Assembly (NCBI GenBank): GCA_023954195.1
Contig: JAMLIK010000002.1
Span: forward strand, 496,001-560,000
Origin: Xanthobacteraceae bacterium
Lineage (GTDB): Bacteria; Pseudomonadota; Alphaproteobacteria; Rhizobiales; Xanthobacteraceae
Reading direction: 5' to 3'
DNA: 64,000 bases
The notes below the pieces were generated by a model. It saw only the letters and a list, made by a program, of their open reading frames with translations. It was not told where the DNA came from and did no database searches. Within the stretch, counting starts at the first letter, position 1, and the number at the start of each line of letters is the position of its first letter. Below, one piece after another: positions 21,211-36,828 of the stretch. A program made the translations under genes and the position numbers.

Positions 21211-21383
21211 ATAGCCGGCGAACCGGCCCGCTCAATATAGGGGGTCGCGCGGCCGGGCGGAAGCCCCGCGACGGTTTGTCCGCGAGGTCGTGGGGAGGGG
21301 GCGCGGCCCCGCGCCCGGCGCAGGCGGGGGCACCTAAAACGCGGCTTGGTGGCGCTGCGCGCAGGCGATAAGTCTCAGCGCCG

Positions 21384-21980: not shown

Positions 21981-22507
21981 CCGGCATCGGGACGCTGGTC
22001 TCCATCGCGCTGGCGTTCGGCTGGCTGTCGCTGTTCGCTGTCGGCGGCGCGGCCGCCGCGATTCCGGAAATCCACCGTATCGCCGTCGATCTCAATCACT
22101 GGATGACCGAGGCGCAGTTCGCCGACGCCTTCGCCATCGCCCAATTGTCGCCCGGCCCCAACGTGCTGATCGTCACCCTGGTCGGTTATCAGGTGGCCGG
22201 GATCGCCGGCGCGCTGGTGGCGACGCTGGCGATGTGCGTGCCGACCGCCGCGCTCGCCTATACCGTCAGCCGGCTCATCAACCGCGCCGGCGATTCGCCG
22301 TGGCCCGCGCTGGTGCAGGCGGCGCTGGTGCCGCTCTCGATCGGGTTGATGGCGGCGAGCGGCCTGATCCTGGCCTTCGCCGCGGACGGCTCCGTCGCCG
22401 CCGTGGCGTTGACGCTGGCCGCGGCGGTGATGGCGGCGGCGACCTCGCTCAACCCGGTGTGGCTGCTGGTGGCCGGCGGCGTGCTCGGGCTGCTGGGCTG
22501 GATTTGA
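21977..22507 (+). CDS. chromate transporter, C-terminal half (split ChrA)
   Basis: 176-residue partner of the preceding gene, with the same CHR motifs in variant form: FAVGGAAAAIPEIHRIAVD at about residues 21-39, then LSPGPNVLIVTLVGYQ. About five to six membrane helices are predicted. The ATG at 21977 overlaps the TGA of the first half, which indicates translational coupling and equal stoichiometry. The two halves differ enough to be expected to insert in opposite orientations, as shown for paired short-chain CHR proteins. Confidence 0.85.
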   Translation: MTGIGTLVSIALAFGWLSLFAVGGAAAAIPEIHRIAVDLNHWMTEAQFADAFAIAQLSPGPNVLIVTLVGYQVAGIAGALVATLAMCVPTAALAYTVSRLINRAGDSPWPALVQAALVPLSIGLMAASGLILAFAADGSVAAVALTLAAAVMAAATSLNPVWLLVAGGVLGLLGWI

Positions 22508-22622
22508 ACGGGGGGCTGGGCCGACGCCCCGGAACCCACACATTGTCCCCAGCATATTGCCTTATCGGCCGTCGTGTTGCCCGGCCGCGGGCGCTAGATT
22601 GAGCCGAACGAGACGGACCTCC

Positions 22623-22747
22623 ATGCACCAGCAGCATCACAACCCATTTGAAGCATTCTCGCCGATGGCGCGGAAAAGGGCGCCGACGCCGGCGCGCTGT
22701 CGGTGTTCAGCCATCGGTTGCGCGACGATCTGACCGCGGGTTGGCGC
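22623..22747 (+). pseudogene. thyA: 5' remnant of the native thymidylate synthase gene
   Basis: Starting from an ATG at 22623 the frame begins MHQ, as native ThyA proteins of this group do. After a +2 shift, the frame from 22661 reads ADGAEKG, then [19 protein letters not shown]. This aligns with the ThyA N-terminus (compare [18 protein letters not shown] in the intact copy downstream, residues 29-46). The distance from the ATG to DGAEK matches the normal protein once the 2-base shift is allowed for. Six bases are missing at the DRTGTGT loop. Homology stops near 22747, where a palindromic repeat begins. It is clearly non-functional. Confidence 0.8.
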
Positions 22748-22790
22748 GTTTTCTCGACGCGAACCGGATTGCCCTTCGCTCGAAGGCGCT
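22745..22790. repeat. palindromic repeat, family D, at the thyA break
   Basis: CGCGTTTTC...ACGCGAACCGG...CTTCGCTCGAAGGCGC has imperfect inverted ends (GCGTTTTC / GAAGGCGC). A second copy in the same orientation lies at 36780-36828, just beyond folA. This copy abuts the last recognisable base of the 5' thyA remnant, so it marks the left edge of the inserted block. Confidence 0.65.
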
Positions 22791-22887
22791 ACAGTTTCGC
22801 ATTCACCATGTCAGTCGGCAAAAAACCACCGCAGTCCGACGTTTCGTTTTGGGCAGCCTGACAATGACTGGAGCAAATGGACCGGCA

Positions 22888-23694
22888 ATGTCTCATCCCG
22901 AGGAACAATATCTTGGACTCCTGCGCTCGCTTCTCGAACGGGGCGTTCGGCGCACGGACCGGACGGGTGTCGGAACCCTGTCGATGTTCGGGCATCAAAT
23001 GCGCTTCGATCTCGCGGACGGATTTCCGCTGCTCACCACCAAGCGAATATTCTTTCGCGGGTGCGTTCATGAACTTCTCTGGTTTCTAAGCGGGGATACA
23101 AACACCAGGTATCTTCGAGAAAATGGGGTCACGATTTGGGACGAATGGGCCGACGAAAACGGCGATCTCGGGCCCGTCTACGGGAAGCAATGGCGCCAAT
23201 GGGAAGCCAAGGACGGCAGAACCATCGATCAGATCTCCGGCCTGGTCGAAGGCCTCCGATCGAATCCGCATAGCCGACGCCTTCTTTTTACCGGCTGGAA
23301 TGTCGGTGAATTGGACCGAATGGCCCTGCCGCCTTGCCACATGGTGTATCAATACTACGTGGCTGACGGACGCCTTTCCGGATTGTTGTTCCAGCGAAGC
23401 GCGGATTCGTTTCTTGGCCTGGGCTGGAATCTCTGCGAGGCCGCCCTCCTGATACACATGCTTGCCCAGCAGGTCGGTCTGGAAGTCGGAGAACTCGTCT
23501 GGTCGGGTGGCGATGTCCATCTCTATCTAAATCATGTCGAGCAAGCTCGGGCACAGTTGCTGCGCGAGCCACGGCCCTTTCCCAAGCTCAACCTCAGGCG
23601 GAAGCCCCCTTCGATGTTCGAGTACGCCTATGAGGATTTCGAATTGCTCGGTTACAATCCCCATCCAAATATTTCCGCCAAGGTGGCTGTCTGA
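22888..23694 (+). CDS. thyA: thymidylate synthase (acquired, intact copy)
   Basis: 268-residue ThyA, predicted to methylate dUMP with methylene-tetrahydrofolate. All catalytic features are present: the folate/phosphate Arg region DRTGVGT near 24, [19 protein letters not shown] at 84-102, and nucleophile Cys150 in LPPCHMVYQ. Also present are QRSAD at 169-173, Asn181, and the end [13 protein letters not shown]. The start at 22888 matches the family length; an earlier ATG at 22864 is possible and neither has a strong Shine-Dalgarno. Codon use is visibly less GC-rich than in the flanking core genes. It is divergent from the two native thyA remnants and presumably replaces their function. Confidence 0.92.
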
Positions 23695-23732
23695 GATTTT
23701 TCACGGCGTCGTTACTTGCCGCCAATGTTCGG

Positions 23733-24074
23733 TTACCGGTCCAGCGGCCCTCCGAGAGAAGTCGTTCGATATATTTCCGTGACTTTCATGCCATTCCGAT
23801 CGTTGCGCGGCGGGGCTGTTGCCAAAATCGCGCTTTCGGGGAAAGCAGCGGCGATCCGCTTCGGCCTGGTGCTCCTGTCCTTGAGCCATCGCAGGCGCCG
23901 CATCTTCGGGGGCATCGGGTCCGCATGCCTCTCGCGCCCGTTGTAGAAGGTCGCATCGCAGGTCCCGGCCTTCCGACAGGCCTTGGTAATCGGCGCGCGA
24001 TCCCGAGCCTGTTTCAGCACAAACGCGATCCGCGCCTCACTGAATTTCGATGCCCTCCTGGCGGCGGCGTCCAA
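23733..24074 (-). pseudogene. decayed IS3-family transposase orfA
   Basis: The minus-strand frame opens with KFSEARIAFVLKQARDRAP, then CRKAGTCDATFYN and MRRLRWLKDRSTRPKRI. This follows, with substitutions, the IS3-group OrfA pattern KFSEAQIxFxLKQAE...CRKAGISxATFYNW...MRRLRQLEDENARLKK. The helix-turn-helix Trp after YN is lost, the leucine zipper is eroded, and no orfB follows. The terminal 35 residues are unlike any OrfA. I see no terminal inverted repeats. It is a relic of a mobile element at the left end of the inserted block. Confidence 0.65.
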
Positions 24075-24117
24075 CGATAGCTTGGGACCAAACTCCTACT
24101 CATGCGCTTCCGTGTCG

Positions 24118-24150
24118 GATTGTTGACAATCTTACATGTTGATGCATGAT
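24118..24150 (+). promoter_or_regulatory. candidate promoter with overlapping GntR-type operator
   Basis: GATTGT-TG-ACAATC at 24118-24131 is a perfect 6-bp inverted repeat of the kind bound by GntR/FCD repressors. It overlaps a -35 hexamer TTGACA (24123-24128). A weak -10 (CATGAT at 24145-24150) follows at 16 bases. The catabolic cluster that begins here contains its own GntR/FCD gene, so autogenous control is a reasonable inference. If correct, transcription starts after the ATG at 24146, which supports the later livH start. Confidence 0.45.
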
Positions 24151-24187
24151 GCGCGAAGGGAGAAAACAAACAAGGCTGGGGGTCCGC

Positions 24188-25054
24188 ATGCTTGCGGCAT
24201 CATTGGCGCTCAACGGCTTGGTTATGGGTTCGGTGCTGCTGCTGTTCAGCCTCGGCCTGACGCTGATCTACGGCGTGGGGCGCATCGTGAATTTCGCGCA
24301 CGGCGCTTTCTTCAGCCTTGGGGCGATGGCCGGCATCTGGGCCGCCAATTCGGGGTTGCCGTTCTGGGCTGCGCTGATCGTCGCGCCGCTTGGCGTGGGT
24401 CTGCTCGGCGTGCTGCTCGATTGGGCGGTATTCGCCCGCATTCGCGACAGGCCGATGGTGGACAGTCTGCTGCTTACCTTTGGCCTTGCGCTTTTTATCA
24501 CCGGTGTTCTGTACGAATTTGGCGGTCGCAACGTGCAGATCCTGGCGATACCGCCGAGCCTGCAAGGCATCGTTTCGCTCGGCGCGATCAAGCTTCCCGT
24601 GTATCGCGTGTTCTTGTCGGCGCTCGCGATCCTGCTCACGGTGGCGCTGCTGTTGTTTCTCAAGAACTCCGACTGGGGACTTCGGGTTCGCGCCGCGAAC
24701 GATGATCCCGAAATGGGGGCCTGCCTCGGCATCGACCGCGAGAACCTGATGCATTCGGTGGTCGGCGTCAGTGCGGCGCTGGCGGCGATCTCCGGCGTTG
24801 TCGGTGCGCCGATCTTTACCGCCTATGCGTCGGTCGGCGACAAAATTCTGATCCTGGCATTCATGACGGTGATTCTCGGCGGCCTCGGGAGTCTGCGTGG
24901 CGCTATCGTCGCGGCCTATGTCGTGGGCCTCATCACGGTGTTCGGCGAGGGTTACTTCGGAGGGCAGCTCGCGCTGATGCTTCTGTTCGTCCTCGTCATG
25001 GCGATGCTGATTAACTGGCCGCGCGGGTTCTTCGGAGAGGGGCGGACGGAATGA
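24188..25054 (+). CDS. livH: branched-chain-type amino acid ABC transporter permease (LivH family)
   Basis: 288-residue inner-membrane permease. It has the LivH motif SLGLTLIYGVGRIVNFAHGAFFSLGA near the N-terminus and the cytoplasmic EAA-like loop DWGLRVRAANDDPEMGACLGID, with about eight helices. The frame opens at 24146, but the ATG at 24188 is preferred: it begins at the first helix as in homologues, has GGGGG 5 bases upstream, and lies after a candidate promoter. The stop overlaps livM by 4 bases. First gene of the island operon. HAAT-family importers of this type often carry aromatic or other carboxylic acids, which suits the CoA-ligase and crotonase neighbours. Confidence 0.88.
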   Translation: MLAASLALNGLVMGSVLLLFSLGLTLIYGVGRIVNFAHGAFFSLGAMAGIWAANSGLPFWAALIVAPLGVGLLGVLLDWAVFARIRDRPMVDSLLLTFGLALFITGVLYEFGGRNVQILAIPPSLQGIVSLGAIKLPVYRVFLSALAILLTVALLLFLKNSDWGLRVRAANDDPEMGACLGIDRENLMHSVVGVSAALAAISGVVGAPIFTAYASVGDKILILAFMTVILGGLGSLRGAIVAAYVVGLITVFGEGYFGGQLALMLLFVLVMAMLINWPRGFFGEGRTE

Positions 25055-26055
25055 GCGATCATACTGCCACAATGCCGATGCATGCCGCGGCGGACCGGCG
25101 AATGAAGGGGCTGGCTCTGCTCGTCGCGGCCGCGGCCGGCGCGAGCGTGCCGCTCTGGACGGGGAACGTGCCCTTTGTTCTGATCCTTGCCTCGCAAGCT
25201 GTGATCGCGGCGATCGTGGCGCTGAGTCTCGATCTGCTGATGGGAAGCACCGGCCTGCTCTCATTTGGCCATGCCGCCTGGTACGGCTTCGGTGCCTATC
25301 TCACAGGTCTCGCGGCGAAGATGTTGACGCCGGAGATGCTGCTGCTGCTGCCGCTCACTGTCGCCGTCACCATTCTGCTGTCGGCGATCATCGGCTTCGT
25401 GCTGGTCCGGCAGATCGGCAAGACATTCGCCATTCTGACGCTCGCCTTGGGGCAGATCATGTTTGCGCTGGTCTTCGTCATGTCCGGGATCACCGGTGGC
25501 GAGGACGGCCTGCAAGGCATCCCGGTGCCCACCGCGCTCGGCTTCCAGATCGCCAAGCCCGCGGTTTGGTACTGGCTGCTCTATGGCATTCTGCTCGCAT
25601 CGCTCGCGGGTGCGTTCCATATCCGGCGCTCGCCGCTTGGCAAGTCCTGGCTGGCGATTCGCGAGAACACTGAACGCGCGCGCTTTATCGGGTTGGATAC
25701 CGGAACTCTCAAGCTGCTGTCCTACGTGGTGTCGGCAAGCCTCGCGGCGCTCGCCGGCGGCTTGTTCGCGCTGTTCAATGGCGCGGCTTCGCCTGACATG
25801 CTCAACTGGTTCGAGTCCGGAAAAGTGTTGATGTATGTGGTTCTCGGAGGCGTCGGCACGATCATCGGACCTGTGATCGGCGCCGCCGTTTTCACCGTCA
25901 CCGAACATTACGTCAGCAGCGTCACCAATTCCTGGCTGATCTACTTTGGCGGGTTCTTCGTGCTGATCGTCATCGTGGCGCCGGGCGGGTTGTTCGGTGC
26001 GGGCGCCAGCCTGTGGGCCCGGATCACCACCGCGCGGCGCGGAGCGTCGGCATGA
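25051..26055 (+). CDS. livM: branched-chain-type amino acid ABC transporter permease (LivM family)
   Basis: 334-residue second permease. It has the LivM hallmark LLMGSTGLLSFGHAAWYGFGAYLTG, followed by GITGGEDGLQGIP and the transmembrane-cytoplasmic loop SPLGKSWLAIRENTERARFIG. About ten hydrophobic helices are predicted. It overlaps livH by four bases and livG by four bases (ATGA), so the three are coupled. It would pair with LivH to form the membrane channel of the importer. Confidence 0.88.
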   Translation: MSDHTATMPMHAAADRRMKGLALLVAAAAGASVPLWTGNVPFVLILASQAVIAAIVALSLDLLMGSTGLLSFGHAAWYGFGAYLTGLAAKMLTPEMLLLLPLTVAVTILLSAIIGFVLVRQIGKTFAILTLALGQIMFALVFVMSGITGGEDGLQGIPVPTALGFQIAKPAVWYWLLYGILLASLAGAFHIRRSPLGKSWLAIRENTERARFIGLDTGTLKLLSYVVSASLAALAGGLFALFNGAASPDMLNWFESGKVLMYVVLGGVGTIIGPVIGAAVFTVTEHYVSSVTNSWLIYFGGFFVLIVIVAPGGLFGAGASLWARITTARRGASA

Positions 26056-26804
26056 TCCTCGAAGCGACCAACATCACCAAGCACTTCGGCGGTCTGAAGG
26101 CTGTCAACGGCGTCGATCTGCGGATCGTGCCTGCCTCCATCCATTCCATTATCGGTCCGAACGGCGCCGGCAAGACCACGCTGTTCAATCTGATCACCGG
26201 CGCGATCACGCCGGCAGCGGGGACGGTGATGTTCGATGGCGTTGACATCACCGGGTGGTCGCCGGAGCGTCTGGCCAAGATCGGTCTTGCGCGCACATTC
26301 CAGCGCACCAGTGTGTTTCGTAACCTGTCGGTGCTGGAGAATATCGCCCTCGCGATCCGGTCACGCGAGGGGCTCAGCCGCTCGATCTGGCAATCGGTCA
26401 GGAGCGAAGAAGCGATTGCAGCCGAAGCGATGGAGATCCTCGGCCGGGTGCGCTTGCGCGGATACGAGAATAGCAAGGCCGGTGCGTTGGCCCATGGTTA
26501 TCAGCGTGCACTCGATATCGCGATCGGCCTCGCGCTGAAGCCGAAGCTGATCCTCATGGACGAGCCGCTCGCCGGCATGTCTCGCGGCGATCGTGAAACC
26601 GTCGCCGCACTCATCACATCGCTGCGCAGCGCGCTCGGCGTCACGATCGTGGTCGTCGAACACGACGTCAGCATGGTCATGCGTCTGTCGGATCGCATCA
26701 CGGTGATGCAGCACGGACAGGTGATCGCCGATGCGCCGCCGGCCGAAATCCGCGACAACGAGGCGGTTCGAAAGGCTTATCTCCATGGGAGCTTCGCGAC
26801 ATGA
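26052..26804 (+). CDS. livG: ABC transporter ATP-binding protein (LivG family)
   Basis: 250-residue nucleotide-binding subunit. Walker A is GPNGAGKTT near residue 37 and Walker B is LILMDEP near 165. The family switch GLARTFQRTSVFRNLSVLENI is present. The C-loop reads LAHGYQRALDIA rather than LSGGQ; this LAHG form belongs to a recognised LivG subgroup and is not a defect. The ATG at 26052 overlaps the livM stop; a longer upstream frame is a shadow. It would drive the importer with LivF. Confidence 0.88.
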   Translation: MILEATNITKHFGGLKAVNGVDLRIVPASIHSIIGPNGAGKTTLFNLITGAITPAAGTVMFDGVDITGWSPERLAKIGLARTFQRTSVFRNLSVLENIALAIRSREGLSRSIWQSVRSEEAIAAEAMEILGRVRLRGYENSKAGALAHGYQRALDIAIGLALKPKLILMDEPLAGMSRGDRETVAALITSLRSALGVTIVVVEHDVSMVMRLSDRITVMQHGQVIADAPPAEIRDNEAVRKAYLHGSFAT

Positions 26805-27508
26805 CCGGCGCGTTGATCTACGACAATCTTTGCGCCTTCTACGGAGCGAGCCAGATTCTCCACGGCGTCAGCTTCCAGGTCGATAAGGGCTCGGTCGCGT
26901 GCCTGCTCGGTCTCAACGGGATGGGCAAGACCACCACATTGCGCGCCACGATGGGATTGGTGGACCGAACCGATGGCAAAATCATCCTGAACGGTCAGGA
27001 ATTACGCGGGCCGACTCATCGGCGGTCGAAAATGGGCGTTACGCTCGTGCCCGAGGATCGCAAGGTGTTCGCGGGCCTCACCGTGGAGGAAAACCTCCGC
27101 GTCGCTCAGCGAAAAGCCGCGCAGGGCGACGACTTCAAGATGAACGATGCGATCGAGATATTTCCACGTCTCGGCGAGCGGCTGGGACAGAAGGCTGGAA
27201 CCCTGAGCGGCGGCGAACAGCAGATGCTGGTGGTCGCGCGCGCCATGCTGGCCAACCCGCATTACATGATGCTGGACGAGCCGACGGAAGGACTCGCCCC
27301 CAGCTACGTCGATGCGATCCGGGACTCCATCGATGCCGCGCGCAAGCGAGGCATCGGCATCATTCTCGTCGAGCAGAGCCTGCCGTTGGCGCTTGCGGTG
27401 GGCGACCGGTTCTATGTGATGGAGAACGGTCAGATCATCAAGTTCTTTGAACGTAAGGAAGTGGTCGCCGATCCGAACCGTCTCGCCAACATGTTGACAG
27501 TGGAGTAG
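26801..27508 (+). CDS. livF: ABC transporter ATP-binding protein (LivF family)
   Basis: 235-residue ATPase. It has Walker A GLNGMGKTT, signature LSGGEQQML, Walker B YMMLDEP and the switch region LVEQSLPLALAVGDRFYVMENG, all in normal order. The insert VTLVPEDRKVFAGLTVEENLRV is the typical LivF Q-loop region. It overlaps livG by four bases and ends five bases before the crotonase gene, continuing the operon. Confidence 0.88.
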   Translation: MTGALIYDNLCAFYGASQILHGVSFQVDKGSVACLLGLNGMGKTTTLRATMGLVDRTDGKIILNGQELRGPTHRRSKMGVTLVPEDRKVFAGLTVEENLRVAQRKAAQGDDFKMNDAIEIFPRLGERLGQKAGTLSGGEQQMLVVARAMLANPHYMMLDEPTEGLAPSYVDAIRDSIDAARKRGIGIILVEQSLPLALAVGDRFYVMENGQIIKFFERKEVVADPNRLANMLTVE

Positions 27509-27512
27509 GCCG

Positions 27513-28274
27513 GTGGCGGACATTCAAAGCCGTCGGAATGGCGACATTCTCATCCTGACGATCGATAACGAAGCCAAGCGCAACGCGTTTACGCACGACA
27601 TGACGCTGCGGCTCGGTGAGTTGCTCGACGCCGCCGAGGCTGATCGCGCGGTACGCTGCGTAATTCTGACCGGGGCGGGGAATCGCGCCTTTTCCAGCGG
27701 CCACGACCTCAACGCGCTCCTGACCGATCGCGAGCATGCCGCGGACGAGAAGCTCAATGCGCCGTTCTTCAAGCCCCGCTTGATGACGACGCCGACCATC
27801 GCGGCCGTGAACGGCGCCGCGCATGCCGGCGGTTTCATCCTCGCGCTGTCCTGCGACATGCGGATATGCGAGCCACATGCTGATTTCTGTGCTCCCGGCG
27901 CGCGCATCGGTCTCCTGCCGATCGGCGGTCAATTGAGCTGGTTGCCGTCATTGATGCCGCTCGGCATGGCCTACGACATACTGGCGACCGCGCGCCGTGT
28001 CGGCGCGGCCGAAGCCGCGCAACACGGCTTCGTCAACCGCATCTCCGAGCCCGGCCGCGTGCTGGATGCGGCATTGGAAACGGCCCGTCTCATCGCCGCC
28101 AACTCGTTTGATGTGGTGTCGTCGATCAAGCGCGGGCTCGTCACCTTCGCGTGCGACGGCTCGGATGCGGCGCGCCGTTTCGAGGCGGAGGAGGGGCTGC
28201 GGCTGCAAGGCGGCCCCGATGCCGATGAAGGAATGAAGGCTTTTCTTGAGAAGCGACCGCCTCGCTTCAAATAA
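27513..28274 (+). CDS. enoyl-CoA hydratase/isomerase family protein 1
   Basis: 253-residue crotonase-fold protein starting at GTG. The oxyanion-hole elements are present (AFSSGHDLNALL and AAHAGGFILALSCDMRI). The position that normally carries the first catalytic Glu (PE in hydratases) reads APGARIGLLP, with Gly in its place, so a simple hydratase reaction is doubtful. Isomerase, hydrolase or another crotonase chemistry is possible. It is translationally close to livF and to the CoA ligase (5 bases between stop and start), so it is likely to act on the CoA thioester made by that enzyme. Confidence 0.83.
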   Translation: MADIQSRRNGDILILTIDNEAKRNAFTHDMTLRLGELLDAAEADRAVRCVILTGAGNRAFSSGHDLNALLTDREHAADEKLNAPFFKPRLMTTPTIAAVNGAAHAGGFILALSCDMRICEPHADFCAPGARIGLLPIGGQLSWLPSLMPLGMAYDILATARRVGAAEAAQHGFVNRISEPGRVLDAALETARLIAANSFDVVSSIKRGLVTFACDGSDAARRFEAEEGLRLQGGPDADEGMKAFLEKRPPRFK

Positions 28275-28279
28275 GAAGA

Positions 28280-30400
28280 ATGAAGGTTTCCGAAATGAAG
28301 ACCGAAATCGAATCCAAAGAGCTTCTGGCGCGCTATGGCATCGCCACCACTCATCCGGTTTTGGCGACGTCCGCCGCCGTGGCGGCCGAGGCCGTGCGGC
28401 GTCTGGGCAAGCCTTGCGCGCTGAAGGTCGTGTCCCCGGATATCGTTCACAAGGTCGACGCGGGCGGCGTTCGTCTTTCGGTCGGAGCCGAGCAGGCCGC
28501 GGATGCCTATCAATCGATCATCGAGGCCTGCCGCCGGTCGCATCCGAAAGCGACGATCGACGGCGTCCTGATCGAGGAGATGATCCCGGCGGGGCTTGAG
28601 ATCTTCATTGGCGCTCGGCTTGATCGCGATTATGGCGTGGTCGTCTTGATCGGGCCGGGCGGCTCCGGCGTCGAGCAACGAAGCAAGCCGAAGGCGGCGC
28701 TGGCCCCGCTGGACCGGGAGTTGGCGCTGGCCTTGGTCGATGCGGCATTCCCCGCGCGGTTTGCCGACAATGCGGCAGGCCGCGACGTGCTCGCGCGCTA
28801 TCTGATGGCGGTCGGTGGTCCCGATGGGCTGATGATGCGCGAGGCGATTGAAGAACTCGATATCAATCCCGTGATCGTCAGCGGGGGGGACGCCATCGCG
28901 GTCGACGCCGTCGCCAGTGATGCCTCGCCGGCAATCTCGCTAACGCCCCGATCCGATAGCGATATCGCTGAAACGCTGGCGCGCCGCCGCAGTCGGCTCG
29001 GCGGTCTTGGCGCGATCTTCGATCCGAAGGCGATCGCGTTCGTCGGCGCCTCGACGTCGAAGGACAAGCTTGGCTTTCAGTTGATCCAGACGCTGGTTGA
29101 TTTCGGATTCACCGGCAAGATCTATCCGGTGCATCCGACCGCGTCGGAAATCTACGGGTTGAAGGCCTATCCGTCGGTCGCCGCAATTCCGGACGAGGTG
29201 GACCGTGCCTACATCGCCGTCGGCAACAAGCTGGTTCCCGACGTGCTGGCGCAGTGCCGGGACAAGGGGGTGAAAGTCGCGCAGGTGCTGACCGCGGGCT
29301 TCTCCGAATATTCCAGTGACAGTTCCGATCTCGAACAGCAGATGCGCGATCAACTCGCCGCGGGAACGATGCGGATGATCGGCCCGAACTGCATCGGTAC
29401 GTTCTCCTCCGGCACGCGCATGGCCATCGGCGCGCCGCGCTACAATCCGACCGAGCCGGGCGGCATTACGTTCTATTCGCAGAGCGGCACTTACGCCGGC
29501 GACGTGGTGCGCCGCGCTCAGGTCTGGGATCTGCCGGTCGCTCGTGCATTGTCATGCGGCAACTGCGCCGACCTCGATATGCTCGACCTGCTGTTGTTCG
29601 CGGAATCCGATCCCGAGACGACGATCGTCGCATTCTATATCGAATCGATGCGTGATCCCGGACTGTTCTTCCGCGCCGCGCGCGGCATGACCAAACCCGT
29701 CGTCGTTCTGCGCGGCGGCACCACCGAGCAGGGGCAGGTTGCCGCCTCAAGTCATACCGCCGCGCTGGCCACGGATCGCGTGCTCTGGGACGCCGGCGTG
29801 TCGCAATCCGGCGTCATCCAGGTCGGCAGCATGGACGACCTGATGGATACGCTGCTGGCGCTTTCGGTCCACGGCCGCAGCAAGGGAAATCGCCTCGCGG
29901 TGTTCGGCTCGGGCGGCGGCGTCAGCGTCACCTCCTCAGACGTCGCGGCGCAGGTTGGCTTGAAGATTCCGCGGTTGCAGGAGGCAACCGCCGAAGGTCT
30001 CCGCCGCTTCGGTATCCCCGGCACGAGCGTCGCCAACCCCATCGACATTCCGGTGTGGGGCTTGCGCGATGGCGACCGGTATATCTTCGAGGAGATCATC
30101 AATCGGCTGAAAGTCGACGGGAATATCGACCGCATCGTCGTCTTTGTCGAAATGGGGTGGGTGCTCGATTTCATTGAGAACGATATCCAGGGCCTGAAGG
30201 CGCTGGAGGCGATCTGCGCCTCTATTGCACGAGCCCGCCCCGACGGCGCCCCGATGTCGCTGGCGCTGCGAAGCTCCGGCGACAAGTACCAGGATGATTT
30301 CGTCCGCGAACAGCGGATTAACTTGATGAAACTGGGCATTTCTGTCTATCCCACGACATCGCGCGCGGTGCGCGCGCAGGCACGCTTAGTGAAAGGCTAG
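28280..30400 (+). CDS. ADP-forming acyl-CoA synthetase with permuted domains
   Basis: 706-residue ligase predicted to form an acyl-CoA from a carboxylate, CoA and ATP, releasing ADP and phosphate. Order of domains: ATP-grasp (about 1-215, with ALKVVSPDIVHKVDAGGVRL and ELDINPVIV), CoA-binding Rossmann domain (about 235-330, AIFDPKAIAFVGASTSKDKLG), then a succinyl-CoA-ligase-like region. The phosphorylated His lies in VAASSHTAALATD. In most single-chain members the ATP-grasp domain is C-terminal, so the order is inverted here. It lies 5 bases after the crotonase gene. The substrate is unknown and presumably imported by the adjacent ABC system. Confidence 0.88.
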   Translation: MKVSEMKTEIESKELLARYGIATTHPVLATSAAVAAEAVRRLGKPCALKVVSPDIVHKVDAGGVRLSVGAEQAADAYQSIIEACRRSHPKATIDGVLIEEMIPAGLEIFIGARLDRDYGVVVLIGPGGSGVEQRSKPKAALAPLDRELALALVDAAFPARFADNAAGRDVLARYLMAVGGPDGLMMREAIEELDINPVIVSGGDAIAVDAVASDASPAISLTPRSDSDIAETLARRRSRLGGLGAIFDPKAIAFVGASTSKDKLGFQLIQTLVDFGFTGKIYPVHPTASEIYGLKAYPSVAAIPDEVDRAYIAVGNKLVPDVLAQCRDKGVKVAQVLTAGFSEYSSDSSDLEQQMRDQLAAGTMRMIGPNCIGTFSSGTRMAIGAPRYNPTEPGGITFYSQSGTYAGDVVRRAQVWDLPVARALSCGNCADLDMLDLLLFAESDPETTIVAFYIESMRDPGLFFRAARGMTKPVVVLRGGTTEQGQVAASSHTAALATDRVLWDAGVSQSGVIQVGSMDDLMDTLLALSVHGRSKGNRLAVFGSGGGVSVTSSDVAAQVGLKIPRLQEATAEGLRRFGIPGTSVANPIDIPVWGLRDGDRYIFEEIINRLKVDGNIDRIVVFVEMGWVLDFIENDIQGLKALEAICASIARARPDGAPMSLALRSSGDKYQDDFVREQRINLMKLGISVYPTTSRAVRAQARLVKG

Positions 30401-30405
30401 AGCCA

Positions 30406-31224
30406 GTGGGAAACAGGAAATTCAGAAACCTGGATGTGGCCGGCGAGCGGTTCGGAATTCGAGCCGATGTCGCTGGCGCGTTCTTCAATTCATTCGGAGG
30501 GCGTACCAGCGCCATCAAGACGCTGCCGGAGCAACTGGCGGAGAAGCTGGTGGAGCAAATCATTCGCGGCGACTTTGCTCCGGGGCAGCGATTGCACGAG
30601 ATGCGGCTGGCCGAACAGTTTCAGGTCAGCCGAGGGCCGGTGCGCGAGGCATTGCGTCTTCTGGAGCGCGAAGGCCTGGTGGTGATGTTGTCGCATCGCG
30701 GTGCGTCGGTCGCGCGGCTCACGGAAAAGCGGCTGAAGGACATTTTCTCCGTGCGTTCGGCCCTGATGGGGATCTGCGCCGAAGAACTCGCCGAACGGCA
30801 ATCGGAAGCTATCCTGGCTCTGCTTGATGATGGCACGGCAAAGCTGTTCGCCGCCAGCGATCGAGGCGATGTCGGCGAGTACATCGTTATCGTTTACCAG
30901 CTCAGCATGTATCTCGCGGAAGCCTCGGAGAACGGCATCGCTCGCACCATTCTGTTCTCGCTCGGACGCCAGACGCTGCCTTTGACGCGCGGCGTCTTCG
31001 AGGTGGAGAAGCATCGGAAAAGCTGGTCGAAAAACTGGCGCAATATTGTCGAGGGGATCCGCGCGGGCGACACCGCCGCGGCAAAGCAAGCCGCGCATGA
31101 TCTGCTCAGCGGGATCAAGGCTGCGGCCATTTCCGCGCTTGCGGACCTCGAACGTGAGGAAAAGCGCGCCGCCCTGAAGGCCGGCAAGCAGCCCGAGGCG
31201 CCGAATAAGAGGATTTCCAGATAA
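30406..31224 (+). CDS. GntR-family regulator, FCD (FadR) subgroup
   Basis: 272-residue transcription factor. The winged helix spans about residues 38-105 (LPEQLAEKLVEQIIRGDFAPGQRL, VSRGPVREALRLLEREGLVV). The FCD ligand-binding domain (about 110-240) has metal-coordinating-type residues, and the tail is Lys/Arg-rich. A start at GTG 30406 gives a 37-residue N-terminal extension with no better internal Met before the DNA-binding helix. Encoded between the CoA ligase and the binding-protein gene, it probably represses the operon until the imported acid or its CoA ester is present. A palindrome fitting a GntR site lies upstream of livH at 24118-24131. Confidence 0.87.
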   Translation: MGNRKFRNLDVAGERFGIRADVAGAFFNSFGGRTSAIKTLPEQLAEKLVEQIIRGDFAPGQRLHEMRLAEQFQVSRGPVREALRLLEREGLVVMLSHRGASVARLTEKRLKDIFSVRSALMGICAEELAERQSEAILALLDDGTAKLFAASDRGDVGEYIVIVYQLSMYLAEASENGIARTILFSLGRQTLPLTRGVFEVEKHRKSWSKNWRNIVEGIRAGDTAAAKQAAHDLLSGIKAAAISALADLEREEKRAALKAGKQPEAPNKRISR

Positions 31225-31290
31225 CGGCTCTCATCCATCACGGAGCCGAAGCACGCAGCAAAGAGAAATTTTCAACGGAGGAAACCAACC

Positions 31291-32496
31291 ATGCGACAAT
31301 TTCTAAAACTGACAGTGCCGGCTCTCGCTCTCGCGGCGTTCGGAAGTCTGTCGATGGGACATGCGGCAGCTCAGGACGTCGTTCTCGGCGTGTTCGTTCC
31401 CACGACCGGGGTTCTCGCTCCGCTCGGCAACGATATGAAGAATGGATTTGAGCTGGCGGCGCAGGGCGCCAAGGTCAAAGGCCGTCCGGTCAAGCTGGTG
31501 ATCGAGGACACCGCCGCCAATCCCGCGAACGGCCTTCGCAAGGCGCAGAAGCTGGTTCTCGAAGACAAGGCCACGCTGCTGATCGGCGGCGCGGCGAGTT
31601 CGGTCACGCTCGGGGTCAACGCGCAGGCGGCGCGCCTGAATGTGCCGATCATCACGACCAACGCGCAGGCTGTTGGCATCACCGGGGATCAATGCAGCCG
31701 TTTCCTGTTCCGTACCGTGCCGAACGATGCGATGTCCGCGAAGGCCAGTGCGATCATGATGCAGGAGCGCAAGGATCTGCTCGCGAAGAACTGGTTCGTG
31801 GTCTATCACGACTTCGCCTATGGCATCAGCAACAAGAATGAATTCGCCAAGATCCCCGGCATCAAGATCGCCGGCGAGGCTGGCCGTCCGGTCGGCACCG
31901 CCGACTGGTCGAGCGCGATCGCCCAGATCCAGGCCAGTAAGGCCGACGGCGTCTATCTGGCGCTCGCCGTGGGCGACGACCTGACCGCTTTCGTCAATCA
32001 GGCGCGCGGCTTCGGCATCAACTTTCCGATGATGACTCCGGTCGGCATTCCGGATTCGATGTTGCAGGCACTTGGCAAGAATGGCGTTGGCATGATCGCA
32101 GCCGCGCTGACGACCTCGTGGGTGCAGGAAGATACCAACCCGAAGATCGCCGAACTGGTGAAGGCCTATCACGCGAAATATGGCGTCGTGCCTGGCTATC
32201 AGGCGATCCAAGCCTACGCCGGCCTTCAGTTTACCCTCGCTGCGCTCAACGCCGCGAGCGAACTGACGACCGATGCGATCATTAAGTCTCTGGAGACCAC
32301 GTCCGCCGACACCGTGGTCGGAACCATCAAAATCCGCAAGGAAGATCATCAGGGCATGTTGGGAGCTTACATCTCCGAGGCGCAGGCCTTGCCGAAGGAA
32401 AAGTATGGCGCGACGGTCGGTTGGAAGACGTTGACGCCGCTGACCTGGGATCAGACCAAGATCGAACTTGCCAAAACCGGCTGCAAGGGACTCTGA
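31291..32496 (+). CDS. livK: ABC transporter periplasmic substrate-binding protein (LivK family)
   Basis: 401-residue exported protein. The signal peptide is about 1-27 (LALAAFGSLSMGHAAAQ) and is followed by the Peripla_BP_6 fold. Its conserved opening FVPTTGVLAPLGNDMKNGFELAAQ and ligand-hinge stretch LLIGGAASSVTLGVNAQAA are clear. A strong GGAGG lies 8 bases before the ATG, so expression is likely to exceed that of the permeases. It is the specificity subunit of the island importer. Binding-pocket residues resemble the subgroup that binds aromatic or other carboxylates more than classical Leu/Ile/Val, but that is inference. Confidence 0.88.
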   Translation: MRQFLKLTVPALALAAFGSLSMGHAAAQDVVLGVFVPTTGVLAPLGNDMKNGFELAAQGAKVKGRPVKLVIEDTAANPANGLRKAQKLVLEDKATLLIGGAASSVTLGVNAQAARLNVPIITTNAQAVGITGDQCSRFLFRTVPNDAMSAKASAIMMQERKDLLAKNWFVVYHDFAYGISNKNEFAKIPGIKIAGEAGRPVGTADWSSAIAQIQASKADGVYLALAVGDDLTAFVNQARGFGINFPMMTPVGIPDSMLQALGKNGVGMIAAALTTSWVQEDTNPKIAELVKAYHAKYGVVPGYQAIQAYAGLQFTLAALNAASELTTDAIIKSLETTSADTVVGTIKIRKEDHQGMLGAYISEAQALPKEKYGATVGWKTLTPLTWDQTKIELAKTGCKGL

Positions 32497-32524
32497 TTTC
32501 GGAACGGAAGACGCCGGAGACGGA

Positions 32525-33727
32525 ATGATGCTGGGAAAAGCCGGGTCGATCGCCCTTATCGTGCTTTGCCAAGTCTCCGGGATGACTCTGTGGTTCTCGG
32601 CAACGGCTGCGGCCTCGGTCATGGTCGCTGCCGGGAGCCTCTCGGGCCAGCAAAGCGCGTTGCTGACCGGCGCCGTACAGCTTGGCTTCGTCGCCGGAAC
32701 GCTCGGCAGTGCGATTCTCGGACTCGCCGATCGTTTCGATCCGCGACGTCTGTTTACGGTCGCGGCCCTGATCGGCGTCGTCGCCAATCTTGCTTTGCTG
32801 CTGGTTGGCTTCGATAGCGTCATCACGATCGCGCTTCGGTTCGTGACTGGCGCGGCGCTGGCCGGGGTTTATCCGGTCGGGATGAAGATGGCGGCGGCCT
32901 GGACGGAGCGGGGTGTCGGCCTGATGATCGGCGCGGTTGTCGGCGCGGTCACGTTGGGCTCGTCGCTGCCGTATCTTTTCAATGCGATGTCCGGTCTTGA
33001 TTGGCGTACGACAATCTGGACGTCGTCAATTTGCGGTGCGCTTGGCGCCTTGGCGATTCTGTTGACGAGCATTGGCCCGCGACTTCGGATTGCCTCACGC
33101 TTCCGGGCGGCGGAAGCGTTTGCCGCATTGAGGCGGCGGCCGATGTTGCTCGCCAACGGCGGCTATCTCGGACACATGTGGGAACTCTACGCGATGTGGG
33201 CCTGGATCGGCGTTTTCCTGAAATGGGCGATCCAGCGCAGCGACCCCGCGCTGGCGGGCCATGCTGACGTGCTGACCTTCATCGTGATTGCCAGCGGTGC
33301 CTTCGGCTGCATCTTCGCGGGATCGCTGGCGGATCGGATCGGCCGGACCACCGTGACGATCGTGGCGATGGTCGTCAGTGGAATTTGCGCGGCGCTTATC
33401 GGTTTTACTCCCGCATTCGGTGTGGTCGCGGTGCTGGCCGTGGCCATCGTCTGGGGCATCAGCGTCATCGCGGACTCGGCTCAGTTCTCCGCTGCGGTGA
33501 CGGAACTTGCCGAACCGCATTTGATCGGCACCATGCTGACCCTGCAAACTTGCGCCGGCTTCCTGCTGACCTTTCTCACCATTCAGGGAATGCCGATCGT
33601 CATTGATCTGGTCGGTTGGCAATACGCCTTCGCCATTCTGGCGATTGGCCCCGCTTTCGGCGTGACCTCAATGACTTTGCTTCGACGGCAACCGGAATCT
33701 GTCCGTCTCGCTGGCGGCAATCGATAA
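32525..33727 (+). CDS. MFS transporter (island)
   Basis: 400-residue inner-membrane carrier with 12 predicted helices and a central charged loop. The A-motif-like DRFDPRRLFTVAALIG follows helix 2, and a second, GSLADRIGRTTVTI, follows helix 8. ATGATG at 32525 preceded by CGGAGACGGA sets the start; the frame is open a little further upstream but overlaps livK. It resembles the CynX/NNP-like branch. It may import the same acid as the ABC system at high concentration, or export an intermediate. Confidence 0.8.
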   Translation: MMLGKAGSIALIVLCQVSGMTLWFSATAAASVMVAAGSLSGQQSALLTGAVQLGFVAGTLGSAILGLADRFDPRRLFTVAALIGVVANLALLLVGFDSVITIALRFVTGAALAGVYPVGMKMAAAWTERGVGLMIGAVVGAVTLGSSLPYLFNAMSGLDWRTTIWTSSICGALGALAILLTSIGPRLRIASRFRAAEAFAALRRRPMLLANGGYLGHMWELYAMWAWIGVFLKWAIQRSDPALAGHADVLTFIVIASGAFGCIFAGSLADRIGRTTVTIVAMVVSGICAALIGFTPAFGVVAVLAVAIVWGISVIADSAQFSAAVTELAEPHLIGTMLTLQTCAGFLLTFLTIQGMPIVIDLVGWQYAFAILAIGPAFGVTSMTLLRRQPESVRLAGGNR

Positions 33728-33757
33728 ATCTCATCATCAGAAAGAAGGATGTGAAAC

Positions 33758-34576
33758 ATGAGCTGGGAAACACTGACGTTTGACAAGCCGGAGCAGGGAG
33801 TTGGGCTCGTCACCTTCAACCGGCCGCGGCGTGCGAACGCCATCAGCCAGCACATGCTCAAGGAACTGGACGAGGTTTGTGGCGTGATCGCCGCGGACGA
33901 CGAGGTTCGTTGCGTTGTGGTCACCGGTTCGGGGAATGCGTTCAGCGCGGGCTTTGATCTTCGCGATCAGGCGGACGCGATGCCGAGCGGCGTGAAGGAT
34001 TGGGTGCCGCTGCTCGAAGCAGACTTCAAGGGCATCATGCAGTTCTGGAATCTTGGGAAGCCATCGGTCGCCGCCGTGAACGGTCCGGCTTTGGCCGGCG
34101 GTTTCGAATTGATGATGGGTTGCGATCTTGCCATCGCCGTGGAATCCGCCACGTTCGGTGAGCCGGAACTGAAGTTCGGTGCGGGCATCGTCGCGATGAT
34201 CCTGCCATGGTATGTAACGCCCAAGGTCGCCAAGGGCGTGATCTATACCGGCGAGGATTCCATCACCGCGGGTCAGGCGCTTGAATGGGGCCTGATTAAC
34301 AAGATCGTCGAGCCGGACCAGTTGATGCCGGAGGCAATGGCTGTCGCCCGCAAGCTGGCGCGAATGGATCCGATGGTGCTTCAGCGCACCAAGATGGCGC
34401 TCAATCGCACCTACGAGATCATGGGAATGAAGGATGCCCTGCGCTCCGCTTTGGATATCGACATCATGATCGAGGGCGAGGGCACCGATCTGAAGCGCGG
34501 CTTCCTCAAGGTCGTGCGCGAGGAAGGGTTGGCCAAGGCGCTGGCCTGGCGCGAGCGGCGCCTCGACGGAAAGTAG
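33758..34576 (+). CDS. enoyl-CoA hydratase/isomerase family protein 2
   Basis: 272-residue crotonase-family protein. The first oxyanion motif is FSAGFDLRDQAD; the second is NGPALAGGFELMMGCDLAI. The acidic residue missing in the first crotonase is present here (FGEPELKFGAGIV), whereas the second hydratase Glu region (VAKGVIYTGEDSI) differs from the classic hydratase. An AAGGA sequence precedes the ATG. The two crotonases are only distantly alike, so they likely catalyse different steps of the same CoA-ester pathway. Confidence 0.83.
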   Translation: MSWETLTFDKPEQGVGLVTFNRPRRANAISQHMLKELDEVCGVIAADDEVRCVVVTGSGNAFSAGFDLRDQADAMPSGVKDWVPLLEADFKGIMQFWNLGKPSVAAVNGPALAGGFELMMGCDLAIAVESATFGEPELKFGAGIVAMILPWYVTPKVAKGVIYTGEDSITAGQALEWGLINKIVEPDQLMPEAMAVARKLARMDPMVLQRTKMALNRTYEIMGMKDALRSALDIDIMIEGEGTDLKRGFLKVVREEGLAKALAWRERRLDGK

Positions 34577-34612
34577 GATTAGAGAATAGCCACCCGTGAA
34601 TCCTGCCCGCTG

Positions 34613-34710
34613 GAGCACGATCCCGGAAAGTGGAAGCCGGTTTTCGGAAAAGATCATGCGCAAACAAAAAGCTAGGCGACAAGTCTGATTCAACGCAGTT
34701 GAACCAGACT
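34613..34710. repeat. composite repeat with hairpin, ahead of the flavin reductase
   Basis: The first part (34613-34661), GATCCCGGAAAGTGGAAGCCGG...GGAAAAGATC, is a palindrome-like element of a type common in Rhizobiales. The second part is a 13-bp inverted repeat, AGTCTGATTCAAC / GTTGAACCAGACT (34682-34694 and 34698-34710, one mismatch, 3-base loop). It ends just before the Shine-Dalgarno of the reductase, so it may lie in its leader RNA. A similar repeat fragment lies at about 47135-47175. Confidence 0.65.
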
Positions 34711-34723
34711 CCGGAGGAAGGCG

Positions 34724-35917
34724 ATGATGTCTGAAGCTCGTCCAAAGCTGTTCACACCGATCACCGTGCGCGGCGTGACCGTGCGAAATCGGGTGATGCT
34801 CTCCCCGATGAACCAGCATCGCGCGCAGGACGGTTATGCCGATGATGGATTGCTGGTCCATCTCGGCAAGTTCGCGCTCGGCGGCTTCGGCATTATCATG
34901 ACCGAAGCCACGGCGATCGAGCCGCGCGGCCGCGTCGCGCCTGGCGATCTCGGCATCTGGTCGGACGATCACATCGCGGGCCTTCGCCGCGTTTGCGCTT
35001 ACGTGAAAGGGGCGGGTGGCACGCCCGGCGTCCAGTTGGCCCATTCCGGTCGCAAGGGAGCCTCCCAACGACCCTGGCAGGGATTTGGTCCGTTAACCGG
35101 GGAAGACGCAAGGCGAGGAGAGCCGCCGTGGCCGCTGGTGAGCCCGACGCGTGAGGCCCTGGGTCCGGGGCATGTGGTGCCGGACCAGCTATCGCTGGAC
35201 GGCATCGAGGGTGTTCTGCGAAGCTACGCCGATGCCGCCGCGCGTGCGGATGCGGCCGGCTTCGACGTGATCGAAGTTCACGCCGGACATGGCTATCTGA
35301 TCGCAAGCTTCCTTTCGCCCGTCATCAATACGCGTAACGATGAATATGGCGGCGACTTCACGGGACGTATCCGTTTCGCGTTGAAAGTGGCGGATGCGGT
35401 TCGCTCGCGCTGGCCGGAGCACAAGCCGCTGATGTTTCGTATCTCCAGCGTCGATGGGCACCCCAACGGCTGGAAGATCGAGGATTCCATCATGCTGGCC
35501 CGCGAACTGAAGGCTCATGGCGTTGACATCATCGATTGTTCTTCAGGCGGGCTTCGTCAATCAACCGCGCTGGAGAACGCCAAGCGCTATCCGGGCTATC
35601 AGGTTGAATATGCCGCGCGGATTCGGCGCGGTGCCGGGATCGCGACCGCTGCGGTCGGCCTGATTCTCGACGGTCGGCAGGCCGAGGATATCCTCGCGAA
35701 CGAAGAAGCCGATTTCATCGCACTCGGCAGACAGGCTCTATACGATCCGTTCTGGGTTCATCATGCCGCGCAGGAGTTCGGCGTCGATCCGGATTTCGCC
35801 TCGTGGGACGTCTCGGCGGGGTGGTGGCTGGCGAAGCGCAAGGACGGCTTGGCGAGTATCGGCTTGGACGGTGCCGGCAAGCGGATGTCTTCTATTGAAT
35901 ATGAAACGAAAATCTGA
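34724..35917 (+). CDS. NADH:flavin oxidoreductase / Old Yellow Enzyme family
   Basis: 397-residue FMN-dependent TIM-barrel enzyme related to YqjM/NamA, predicted to reduce an electron-poor C=C bond such as that of an alpha,beta-unsaturated carbonyl compound. Key blocks: LSPMNQHRAQDGYA, VQLAHSGRKGAS, and the substrate-binding His pair in HAGHGYLIASFLSP. Further on are NTRNDEYGG and the C-terminal GRQALYDPFW. The start is ATGATG at 34724 with CCGGAGGA 8 bases upstream. It is the last gene of the island set; its product would fit a pathway with an enoyl-type intermediate. It ends about 95 bases before the 3' thyA remnant. Confidence 0.87.
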   Translation: MMSEARPKLFTPITVRGVTVRNRVMLSPMNQHRAQDGYADDGLLVHLGKFALGGFGIIMTEATAIEPRGRVAPGDLGIWSDDHIAGLRRVCAYVKGAGGTPGVQLAHSGRKGASQRPWQGFGPLTGEDARRGEPPWPLVSPTREALGPGHVVPDQLSLDGIEGVLRSYADAAARADAAGFDVIEVHAGHGYLIASFLSPVINTRNDEYGGDFTGRIRFALKVADAVRSRWPEHKPLMFRISSVDGHPNGWKIEDSIMLARELKAHGVDIIDCSSGGLRQSTALENAKRYPGYQVEYAARIRRGAGIATAAVGLILDGRQAEDILANEEADFIALGRQALYDPFWVHHAAQEFGVDPDFASWDVSAGWWLAKRKDGLASIGLDGAGKRMSSIEYETKI

Positions 35918-36009
35918 TTGTCACGGGATGAGCTTGACCGGCTGTCCAATAAACCGGCGGCAACTCAGCTCATGCATTGACCGGATTTCTTCTCCTCGCC
36001 ATATAATGG

Positions 36010-36191
36010 CGGCCATGGTGAATGACCTTCATGGGAGAAAGCCGTTCAACACCGCCTTCGATGCACTGCGGACGATGATGGCGGCGCGGGTCGCCGGATT
36101 GCGGCCGGGCGAATTCATTTTCCGCTGTGAGGATTTCGCGCTGATTGGCTACGATCCGCATCCGCGCATCGAGGCCGAGGTCGCGGTGTGA
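36010..36191 (+). pseudogene. thyA: 3' remnant of the native thymidylate synthase gene
   Basis: The frame ending at the TGA 36189-36191 reads KPFNTAFDALRTMMAARVAGLRPGEFI and then directly FRCEDFALIGYDPHPRIEAEVAV. The first part aligns with the ThyA region that normally reads [25 protein letters not shown]. The second is the ThyA C-terminus (compare [21 protein letters not shown] in the intact copy). About 45 residues between the two are deleted, and the segment before PFN is scrambled. The stop overlaps the folA GTG by four bases (GTGA), the coupling expected of an ancestral thyA-folA operon. Confidence 0.82.
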
Positions 36192-36724
36192 GCGGGTTCA
36201 TGCCGGCGCGCCCCGAGATCGTGCTGCTGGTCGCGATGGCCGAGAACGGTGTGATCGGCCGCGACAACGCCATCCCGTGGCGGCTGAAAGCCGATCAGCA
36301 GCGATTGAAGCGGATGACGCTCGGCAAGCCGATCGTGATGGGACGCAAGACCTTCCTGTCGCTGCGCCGCCCGCTGCCGGGCCGCACCAACATCGTGATT
36401 ACCCGCGACCCGGCGTTTGCCGCCGCCGGCGCGGTGGTGACCGATTCGCTCGCCCACGCCTGCGAGGTGGCGTGGGGCGACGCGCTGCGGCGTTTCGTCA
36501 CTGAAATCGCCGTGATCGGCGGCGCCGAAATCTACGCCCAGGCGATGCCGCAGGCCGACCGGCTCGAAGTTACCGAGGTTCACGCCGCGCCCGATGGCGA
36601 CACCCGCTTCGCCGCCATCGATCCGGCGGTCTGGCGGGAAACGGCGCGGGAGCGTCACCCGGCGTCGGGCGACGACAGCGCCGACTATTCCTTCGTGACC
36701 TACCGGCGGCGCGGCCGCGATTGA
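36188..36724 (+). CDS. folA: dihydrofolate reductase
   Basis: 178-residue enzyme that regenerates tetrahydrofolate from the dihydrofolate made by ThyA. The family blocks are VAMAENGVIGRDNAIPWRL at about 14-32, PIVMGRKTFLSL at about 47-58, LPGRTNIVITR near 63, and IGGAEIYAQAMPQADRL near 105. The start is GTG, overlapping the stop of the dead thyA fragment (GTGA). The original thyA-folA promoter is now separated by the insertion, so folA may rely on read-through from the reductase gene upstream or on an unseen promoter. A strong terminator follows. Confidence 0.93.
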   Translation: MSGFMPARPEIVLLVAMAENGVIGRDNAIPWRLKADQQRLKRMTLGKPIVMGRKTFLSLRRPLPGRTNIVITRDPAFAAAGAVVTDSLAHACEVAWGDALRRFVTEIAVIGGAEIYAQAMPQADRLEVTEVHAAPDGDTRFAAIDPAVWRETARERHPASGDDSADYSFVTYRRRGRD

Positions 36725-36730
36725 GCCGCT

Positions 36731-36778
36731 GGAGCCCCGTTCCGATAGAACCGGAACGGGGCTCCGGATTTTTGTTTT
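36731..36778 (+). terminator. rho-independent terminator after folA
   Basis: A perfect 14-bp stem, GGAGCCCCGTTCCG / CGGAACGGGGCTCC (36731-36744 and 36752-36765), has a 7-base loop. It is followed by ATTTTTGTTTT. It begins seven bases after the folA stop. Confidence 0.88.
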
Positions 36779-36779
36779 G

Positions 36780-36828
36780 ACGCGTTTTCCTCACGCGAAC
36801 CGGTATCCGCTTCGCCCGAAAACGCCAT
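36780..36828. repeat. palindromic repeat, family D
   Basis: CGCGTTTTCC...CGCGAACCGG...CTTCGCCCGAAAACGC has inverted ends GCGTTTTC / GAAAACGC. It is the same element and orientation as at 22745-22790, so one copy lies at each outer edge of the thyA-to-folA region. The remaining bases to the hflK ribosome-binding site (36829-37020) hold no gene. Confidence 0.65.

Follow-up and report, generated by a model that had tools for sequence, protein, structure and literature searches.

In the genome of a Xanthobacteraceae bacterium (GenBank assembly GCA_023954195.1), the native gene for thymidylate synthase, thyA, is split in two, and an intact second thyA, apparently of foreign origin, lies between the remnants in the same orientation as both of them. 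The window analyzed here is a stretch of 64,000 nucleotides (nt) of contig JAMLIK010000002.1 (positions 496,001 to 560,000), within which all coordinates below are given; features are on the plus strand unless indicated otherwise. The host genome comprises 4.18 Mb in 7 contigs, and it was compared primarily with seven other species of the same genus (G001-G007, hereafter congeners). Reading rightward from the tmRNA (transfer-messenger RNA) gene, the gene order is a chromate transporter pair, the 5' thyA piece, a repeat, the intact thyA, a transposase-like relic, an 11-gene catabolic cluster, the 3' thyA piece, folA and an hflK-like gene. Probably, native thyA was long ago displaced at its own locus by a foreign thyA, and a travelling gene cluster, already resident in the genus, lodged alongside.

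The two remnants were assigned by alignment with the congeners. The 5' remnant (22623..22740) starts at the native start codon at 22623 and differs from the congeners by a 3-nt insertion, a 1-nt deletion that shifts the frame, and a 6-nt deletion. Its homology to the thyA of the congeners ends at 22740 in five of the seven (blastn); the initial annotation gave the same start and set the end at 22747, a few bases too far because a dispersed host repeat begins at 22741. The 3' remnant (36038..36191), correctly described in that annotation as internally deleted and overlapping folA, becomes homologous at about 36038/36041 (in five of the seven congeners, matching resumes at 36041), lacks 123 nt at 36119/36120, and runs to the stop codon at 36191, beyond the folA start at 36188. 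For the remaining congeners, the match ends earlier on the left or resumes later on the right (blastn). The 5' piece covers codons 1 to ~40 and the 3' piece codons ~176-203 and 246-263, with no overlap and with ~399 nt of native thyA gone between the two pieces (measured on G003). The flanks on both sides are collinear with the congeners up to the remnants and break off inside thyA (blastn). This collinear alignment, with different codons in each piece, shows that these are two halves of one gene, as had been proposed; the remnants are too short for a tree, in which they had been expected to group with the ThyA of relatives, and were assigned to native thyA by the DNA alignment only. Each of the seven congeners has a single ThyA match, to an intact gene of the native type, and in all of them the folA match starts within ~15 nt of the end of the thyA match. 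The predicted presence of chrA upstream was borne out in six congeners, in which this region is collinear, but not in G007, which yielded no match over the chrA genes (blastn).

In the remnants, changes are spread over all codon positions. Measured against a consensus of G002, G003, G004 and G006, from which columns without agreement among three of the four were left out, they differ at 20/78, 14/80 and 11/73 sites in codon positions 1, 2 and 3, respectively (three stretches summed), compared with 6/85, 3/86 and 20/80 for the intact thyA of G007 over the same stretches. Changes independent of codon position are what decay of the native thyA ends would leave. At codon positions 1 and 2 together, 34 of the 158 sites in the remnants are changed, and because this rate is of the order of the four-fold-site differences of flanking genes in the same species (0.26-0.46, two lineages together), the loss of thyA is probably old and perhaps, the numbers being small, occurred soon after the split from the nearest four species. 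The gradual decay of the remnants is also difficult to reconcile with an assembly misjoin, which we consider a very improbable source of the arrangement despite its presence in the host genome only: the contig around the window is 1.03 Mb long, the assembly, in 7 contigs, is 99.39% complete with contamination of 0.31, and the genome gave no further thymidylate synthase match.

The intact gene (22888..23694, with an alternative in-frame ATG at 22864) encodes a protein of 268 amino acids, of which residues 6-268 match the PF00303 domain (Thymidylat_synt; 375.3 bits versus a cut-off of 24.3), confirming its initial annotation as thyA; the protein also matches the NCBIfam equivalog NF002499 (423.6 versus a cut-off of 405). 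It is the sole ThyA match in the host genome. ThyX was considered as a back-up for the loss of native thyA and rejected, there being no ThyX match in the host genome at E <= 0.001 in a search whose control was positive in 6 of 14 genomes. The foreign ThyA hence appears, from these predictions, to perform deoxythymidine monophosphate (dTMP) synthesis in place of the native enzyme.

The foreign ThyA is only 56-59% identical to the ThyA of the seven congeners, compared with 76% for Hansschlegelia quercus (L077; also G135) and 73% for G293. A ThyA match was obtained in 387 of the 397 genomes of the order and, apart from those just named, none exceeded 63% among the matches listed; in a wider scan of genome contigs, the next-best identity after Hansschlegelia was 66% (among the best 80). 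In a tree of 135 ThyA rows (L237 and L261 left out as repeats of L077 and L238), the host copy joined Hansschlegelia and G293 (100/100) away from the ThyA of the congeners, which clustered with Bradyrhizobium (Nitrobacteraceae), and this trio adjoined ThyA of Bacillota and a Geobacillus phage (99/90). Because the tree places it with the Hansschlegelia type, far from the ThyA of the congeners, the intact thyA is, on phylogenetic grounds, foreign, and the description of this copy in the initial annotation as diverged and non-native holds. The foreign thyA has a G+C content at third codon positions (GC3) of 65%, compared with 71-81% for the cluster and 87-92% for the flanking genes.

The trio represents a rare ThyA subclade with a loop modified close to the active site. 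The foreign ThyA differs at 12 columns in which at least 95% of 132 other ThyA rows agree (a survey that leaves out five subclade rows, namely, the host copy, L077, L237, L238 and L261). In eight of these, one new residue is common to the trio, including G179, W180 and E184 around Asn181, which binds deoxyuridine monophosphate (dUMP), and two (156 and 183) are altered in the protein of the window alone. The loop PFNIASY, the usual residues of which are found in 127-132 of the 132 other rows, depending on the column, reads GWNLCEA in the foreign ThyA and, across the subclade, GWN..EA or GWN..EG (window 22888-23694; L077 10010-10798; L238 1501-2301). Because the dUMP-binding Asn is kept, the PFNIASY loop is not required for ThyA membership. 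Residues C150, R25, R130, R131, R170, N181, H211, Y213 and W84 align with the catalytic and dUMP-binding residues of the E. coli enzyme, including the equivalent of Trp80, and are invariant across the trio; their functions are taken from PMC6005164. The same source describes the VAAP clade of thymidylate synthases, in which one of the four phosphate-binding arginines is lost. Like that clade, the present one is a bacterial ThyA subclade altered at otherwise nearly invariant positions; unlike it, the foreign ThyA keeps all four arginines, and its changes surround the dUMP-binding Asn. A mosaic ThyA formed by recombination with native thyA was considered and rejected, given that none of the 30-residue stretches of the protein clearly favors the native type over Hansschlegelia; only residues 91-120 lean slightly toward it (73% identity versus 70% to Hansschlegelia), and the identity to Hansschlegelia drops at both ends. 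A structure prediction from a 3-row alignment yielded a mean predicted local distance difference test score of 41.8 and was not used.

An origin of the foreign thyA from a phage or plasmid was rejected as well, the best matches being 63.5% (plasmid), 66.2% (phage) and 66% (IMG/VR, in each of two scans, best 80 each). The GWN..E loop occurs in none of the 160 viral loci from the two IMG/VR scans (best 80 each, with many contigs repeated); two of these loci have it in part, L176 with the G alone and L337 with the E alone. A search of 385 genomes of the class for the DNA pattern of the loop matched five, the host included, and the backward control also matched five; the four other pattern-matched genomes had no ThyA match.

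The same ThyA type is located near folA and hflK in Hansschlegelia (L260, L077) and in G293 (L261). Two genomes classed in the same genus, G058 and G217, have an ordinary ThyA at that locus (55-59% identity to this type), with flanks collinear on both sides (blastn). Because this type stands at thyA-folA in Hansschlegelia and G293, and an ordinary ThyA in G058 and G217, this ThyA type has taken the thyA locus in two or more lineages of the order. A search with ordinary ThyA found no native thyA remnant in L260 or L261. A direct recent transfer from Hansschlegelia is unlikely because of the 76% identity and the G+C contents of 68% versus 57%. A more far-reaching possibility is that displacement of native thyA at thyA-folA by a rare ThyA lineage recurs in different families of Hyphomicrobiales, with remnants left in the host lineage and a clean replacement in Hansschlegelia. 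We regard this generalization as doubtful; if it is true, native thyA would repeatedly serve as the place where its own replacement lands, as PMC10653934 proposes for Pseudomonas tmk, and the vehicle could be one so far unsampled.

Most of the DNA between the remnants has a different history. The 11-gene cluster (24146..35917), delineated from domain and NCBIfam matches and from homologous stretches in congeners, encodes two permeases and two ATPases of a branched-chain-amino-acid-type ATP-binding cassette transporter, an enoyl-coenzyme A (CoA) hydratase and an acyl-CoA ligase of the ADP-forming type, together with a GntR regulator, a binding protein, a major facilitator superfamily transporter, a second enoyl-CoA hydratase and a flavin mononucleotide oxidoreductase. 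A homologous stretch of ~11.8 kb (24118-35880) is found in three of the seven congeners, away from thyA and without the foreign thyA. Nearly the whole of it (24118/24158-35880) is present in G001 and G005, at ~78% nucleotide identity, and the G006 contig contains only a part (26042-33552), at 83%. The acyl-CoA ligase is 89% identical in G006, 87% in G001 and 85% in G005; elsewhere, only distant ligases were detected in G002 and G003 (35-36% or less), and none at that threshold in G004 and G007. The nucleotide identity of the flanks, with the thyA pieces and thyA-to-thyA matches set aside, is 76-84% for G001, 71-82% for G005 and 82-90% for G006, so that the divergence of the cluster from the congeners about equals that of the flanks, as judged from these alignments. 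The identities at the protein level (cluster/flanks) are 85/79% for G001, 84/79% for G005 and 85/88% for G006, the last comparison being confounded by matches to paralogues of genes that the G006 contig lacks.

In all three congeners, thyA and the cluster are on different contigs, and blastn shows no shared sequence between the regions around the cluster in G001 and in G005. Of the flanks of the G001 cluster, the right one alone is common to G003 and G006. To the right of the G001 cluster, the sequence shared with these two genomes starts near the same point (L271 16300, L279 12092, L280 5276), to the left of which their content differs from that of G001; this could be a variable insertion spot. 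Outside the genus, a similar cluster is found in G079 (56-74%), and plasmid 1 of Paracoccus denitrificans (L281, NC_008688.1 498390-518495) has nearly the same gene order, with 71% identity of the ligase. Because it occurs at different sites in congeners, in G079 and on the Paracoccus plasmid, the cluster is a travelling catabolic unit that has long been in the genus and of which the foreign thyA is no part elsewhere.

These findings do not support the initial proposal that one ~13 kb block had brought its own thyA, given that ~11.8 kb of it is the cluster found away from thyA in three of the seven congeners. Insertion of a single foreign island of this size, with its own thyA, into native thyA in one step could account for the absence from this site in the congeners of all the DNA between the remnants, for the lower G+C content of the whole stretch compared with the flanks, and for the evident ability of the cluster to travel, given its presence on a Paracoccus plasmid. 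We nevertheless consider it improbable: where the cluster occurs elsewhere in the genus, it is without this thyA and diverged about like the flanks, the two parts differ in GC3 composition as given above, and an integrase is not among the identified genes. By sequence comparison, then, the insert is a composite rather than one imported island, and only ~1-1.4 kb of it, that is, thyA and perhaps the transposase-like relic, looks foreign. The related suggestion that the block would be hard to lose may fit the intact thyA but not the cluster.

The junctions carry few signs of mobile elements. Exactly at the left junction is one half of a dispersed host repeat (22741..22795) with 31 other matching places in the same genome, mostly matching its first ~50 bases. 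The full repeat (window 22741-22795 and 36731-36828; L363-L368), ~95 bases long, consists of a hairpin half and a ~50-base half and has more than 30 matching places in the genome. When six copies were aligned, the preceding hairpin half was present in five and absent at the left junction. A complete-looking copy lies downstream of folA (36731-36828) and includes a 14-bp perfect hairpin (36731-36765). No copy of the repeat was seen at the right junction. Comparison of the junction strips revealed an 11-bp inverted pair with arms CATTCACCATG (22800..22810) and CATGGTGAATG (36014..36024); it was equalled in 10 of 2000 dinucleotide shuffles and is absent from the other cluster copies (L271-L273) and from the Hansschlegelia-type loci L077 and L261. 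The longest direct match between the strips is 8 bp, and no target duplication was seen at the junctions. The transposase-like relic between the foreign thyA and the cluster (23832..24095, minus strand) matches HTH_Tnp_1 with 19.1 bits, below the Pfam cut-off of 24.1, and its portion at 23848-24061 matches 21 plasmid records at ~70-72%, with no gene annotated under the match in the one inspected. Apart from this sub-threshold relic, Pfam searches of the main open reading frames (ORFs) between the remnants detected no integrase, recombinase or complete transposase, and no integrating element was identified as a carrier. The significance of the 11-bp pair is modest, and we do not claim that the insert is a transposon.

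We propose the following course of events. A short foreign segment with thyA would have entered native thyA, or been moved into it, with an entry edge made of host repeat DNA. The foreign thyA would then have assumed dTMP synthesis, driven perhaps by the native promoter, which presumably lies in the region upstream of native thyA (22520..22622) that aligns collinearly with the congeners. The native thyA ends would have drifted afterwards, and the dead 3' part could have offered a harmless site for the 11.8 kb cluster, which may have arrived separately or through a rearrangement. Three parts of this scheme are inferred: that the native promoter is used, what part the repeat played and, because no genome with one component alone at the site was found, the order of the steps. 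In a different order of events, the foreign thyA would have been gained elsewhere in the chromosome, so that native thyA was no longer needed, and host DNA comprising the foreign thyA, the relic and the cluster would later have been rearranged, breaking the native gene at no cost. The host-type repeat at the left edge and the residence of the cluster at varied places in the genus are compatible with such a history; however, it requires that the foreign thyA reached by chance the very gene it replaced, and Hansschlegelia has the same type at the thyA locus too, so that we deem it unlikely.

Several observations also weigh against in-place displacement as we envisage it. We found no genome in which only one of the two, the foreign thyA or the cluster, occupies this site; the subclade to which the foreign ThyA belongs is on a long branch in the tree; the activity of the protein is predicted only; and no sigma-70-like promoter match was found in 22520..22622, upstream of the foreign thyA. 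Furthermore, at four-fold sites, the divergence of the cluster exceeds that of the flanks (0.41/0.31 for G006, 0.52/0.41 for G001 and 0.50/0.44 for G005), so that the cluster may have been transferred between species of the genus rather than simply inherited.

The closest known parallel is Pseudomonas putida KT2440, in which a 65-kb genomic island splits tmk and supplies a deoxynucleoside monophosphate (dNMP) kinase, dNMPK (PMC10653934). There, as here, a native gene for deoxythymidine triphosphate (dTTP) synthesis is split, the replacement enzyme is encoded between the halves, and relatives keep the native gene; furthermore, in both cases, the replacement is found alone in the locus elsewhere, namely, in dNMPK strains and, for ThyA, in Hansschlegelia. 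The two cases also differ. The KT2440 insert is prophage-like, with integrases and recombinases, whereas here no integrating element was found and most of the insert is genus-resident; dNMPK comes from another family (T4-like dNMP kinase), whereas the new ThyA is homologous to the old one; and the function of dNMPK was demonstrated by genetics, whereas that of the foreign ThyA is deduced from its sequence. In the present genome, the native gene, intact in relatives, is split, a foreign replacement is encoded between the halves, and the searches detected no further enzyme of this activity. It looks like a second case of this kind, which concerns the preceding step of the pathway, involves a homologous enzyme and lacks a recognizable integrating element.

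Another thymidylate synthase from acquired DNA is encoded by thyP3 of the Bacillus phage phi3T, which can relieve the thymidine dependence of the host (PMC8270828). There, thyP3 is a prophage gene that is not described as splitting native thyA; in the window, in contrast, the neighborhood of thyA yielded no phage gene, and the subclade appeared in no viral contig examined. Searches of the open-licence literature listed the Pseudomonas tmk case but, among the titles and abstracts listed, no report of a thyA split by DNA carrying another thyA. The present locus looks like a rare case, in nature, of a gene imported into the place of the one it replaces. Core-gene replacement is usually visible only before or after the event; here, because the ends of the displaced gene still flank its successor, the event is readable and roughly datable. 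Together with Pseudomonas tmk/dNMPK, two neighboring steps of dTTP synthesis now have a foreign enzyme in the locus of the gene replaced, which hints that such loci are favored landing sites. The locus is also a caution that the DNA separating two halves of a gene did not necessarily come as one island.

The native flanks consist, on the left, of the chromate transporter pair (chrA-like; 21384..22507), with a Pfam Chromate_transp match in both ORFs, preceded by the tmRNA gene (20885-21266, minus strand) and, on the right, of folA (dihydrofolate reductase, PF00186; 36188..36724), which adjoins thyA in all seven congeners. Two other genomes of the same family have unusual complements of thymidylate synthases. 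G019 (L076, G019:C97), given as 100% complete, lacks an ordinary ThyA: its sole match, at 28%, is to a divergent thymidylate-synthase-like ORF, and its ThyX match is below the cut-off. In G020 (L031, L033; G020:C1), two ThyX matches exceed the cut-off and no ThyA match was obtained, that is, a switch from ThyA to ThyX.

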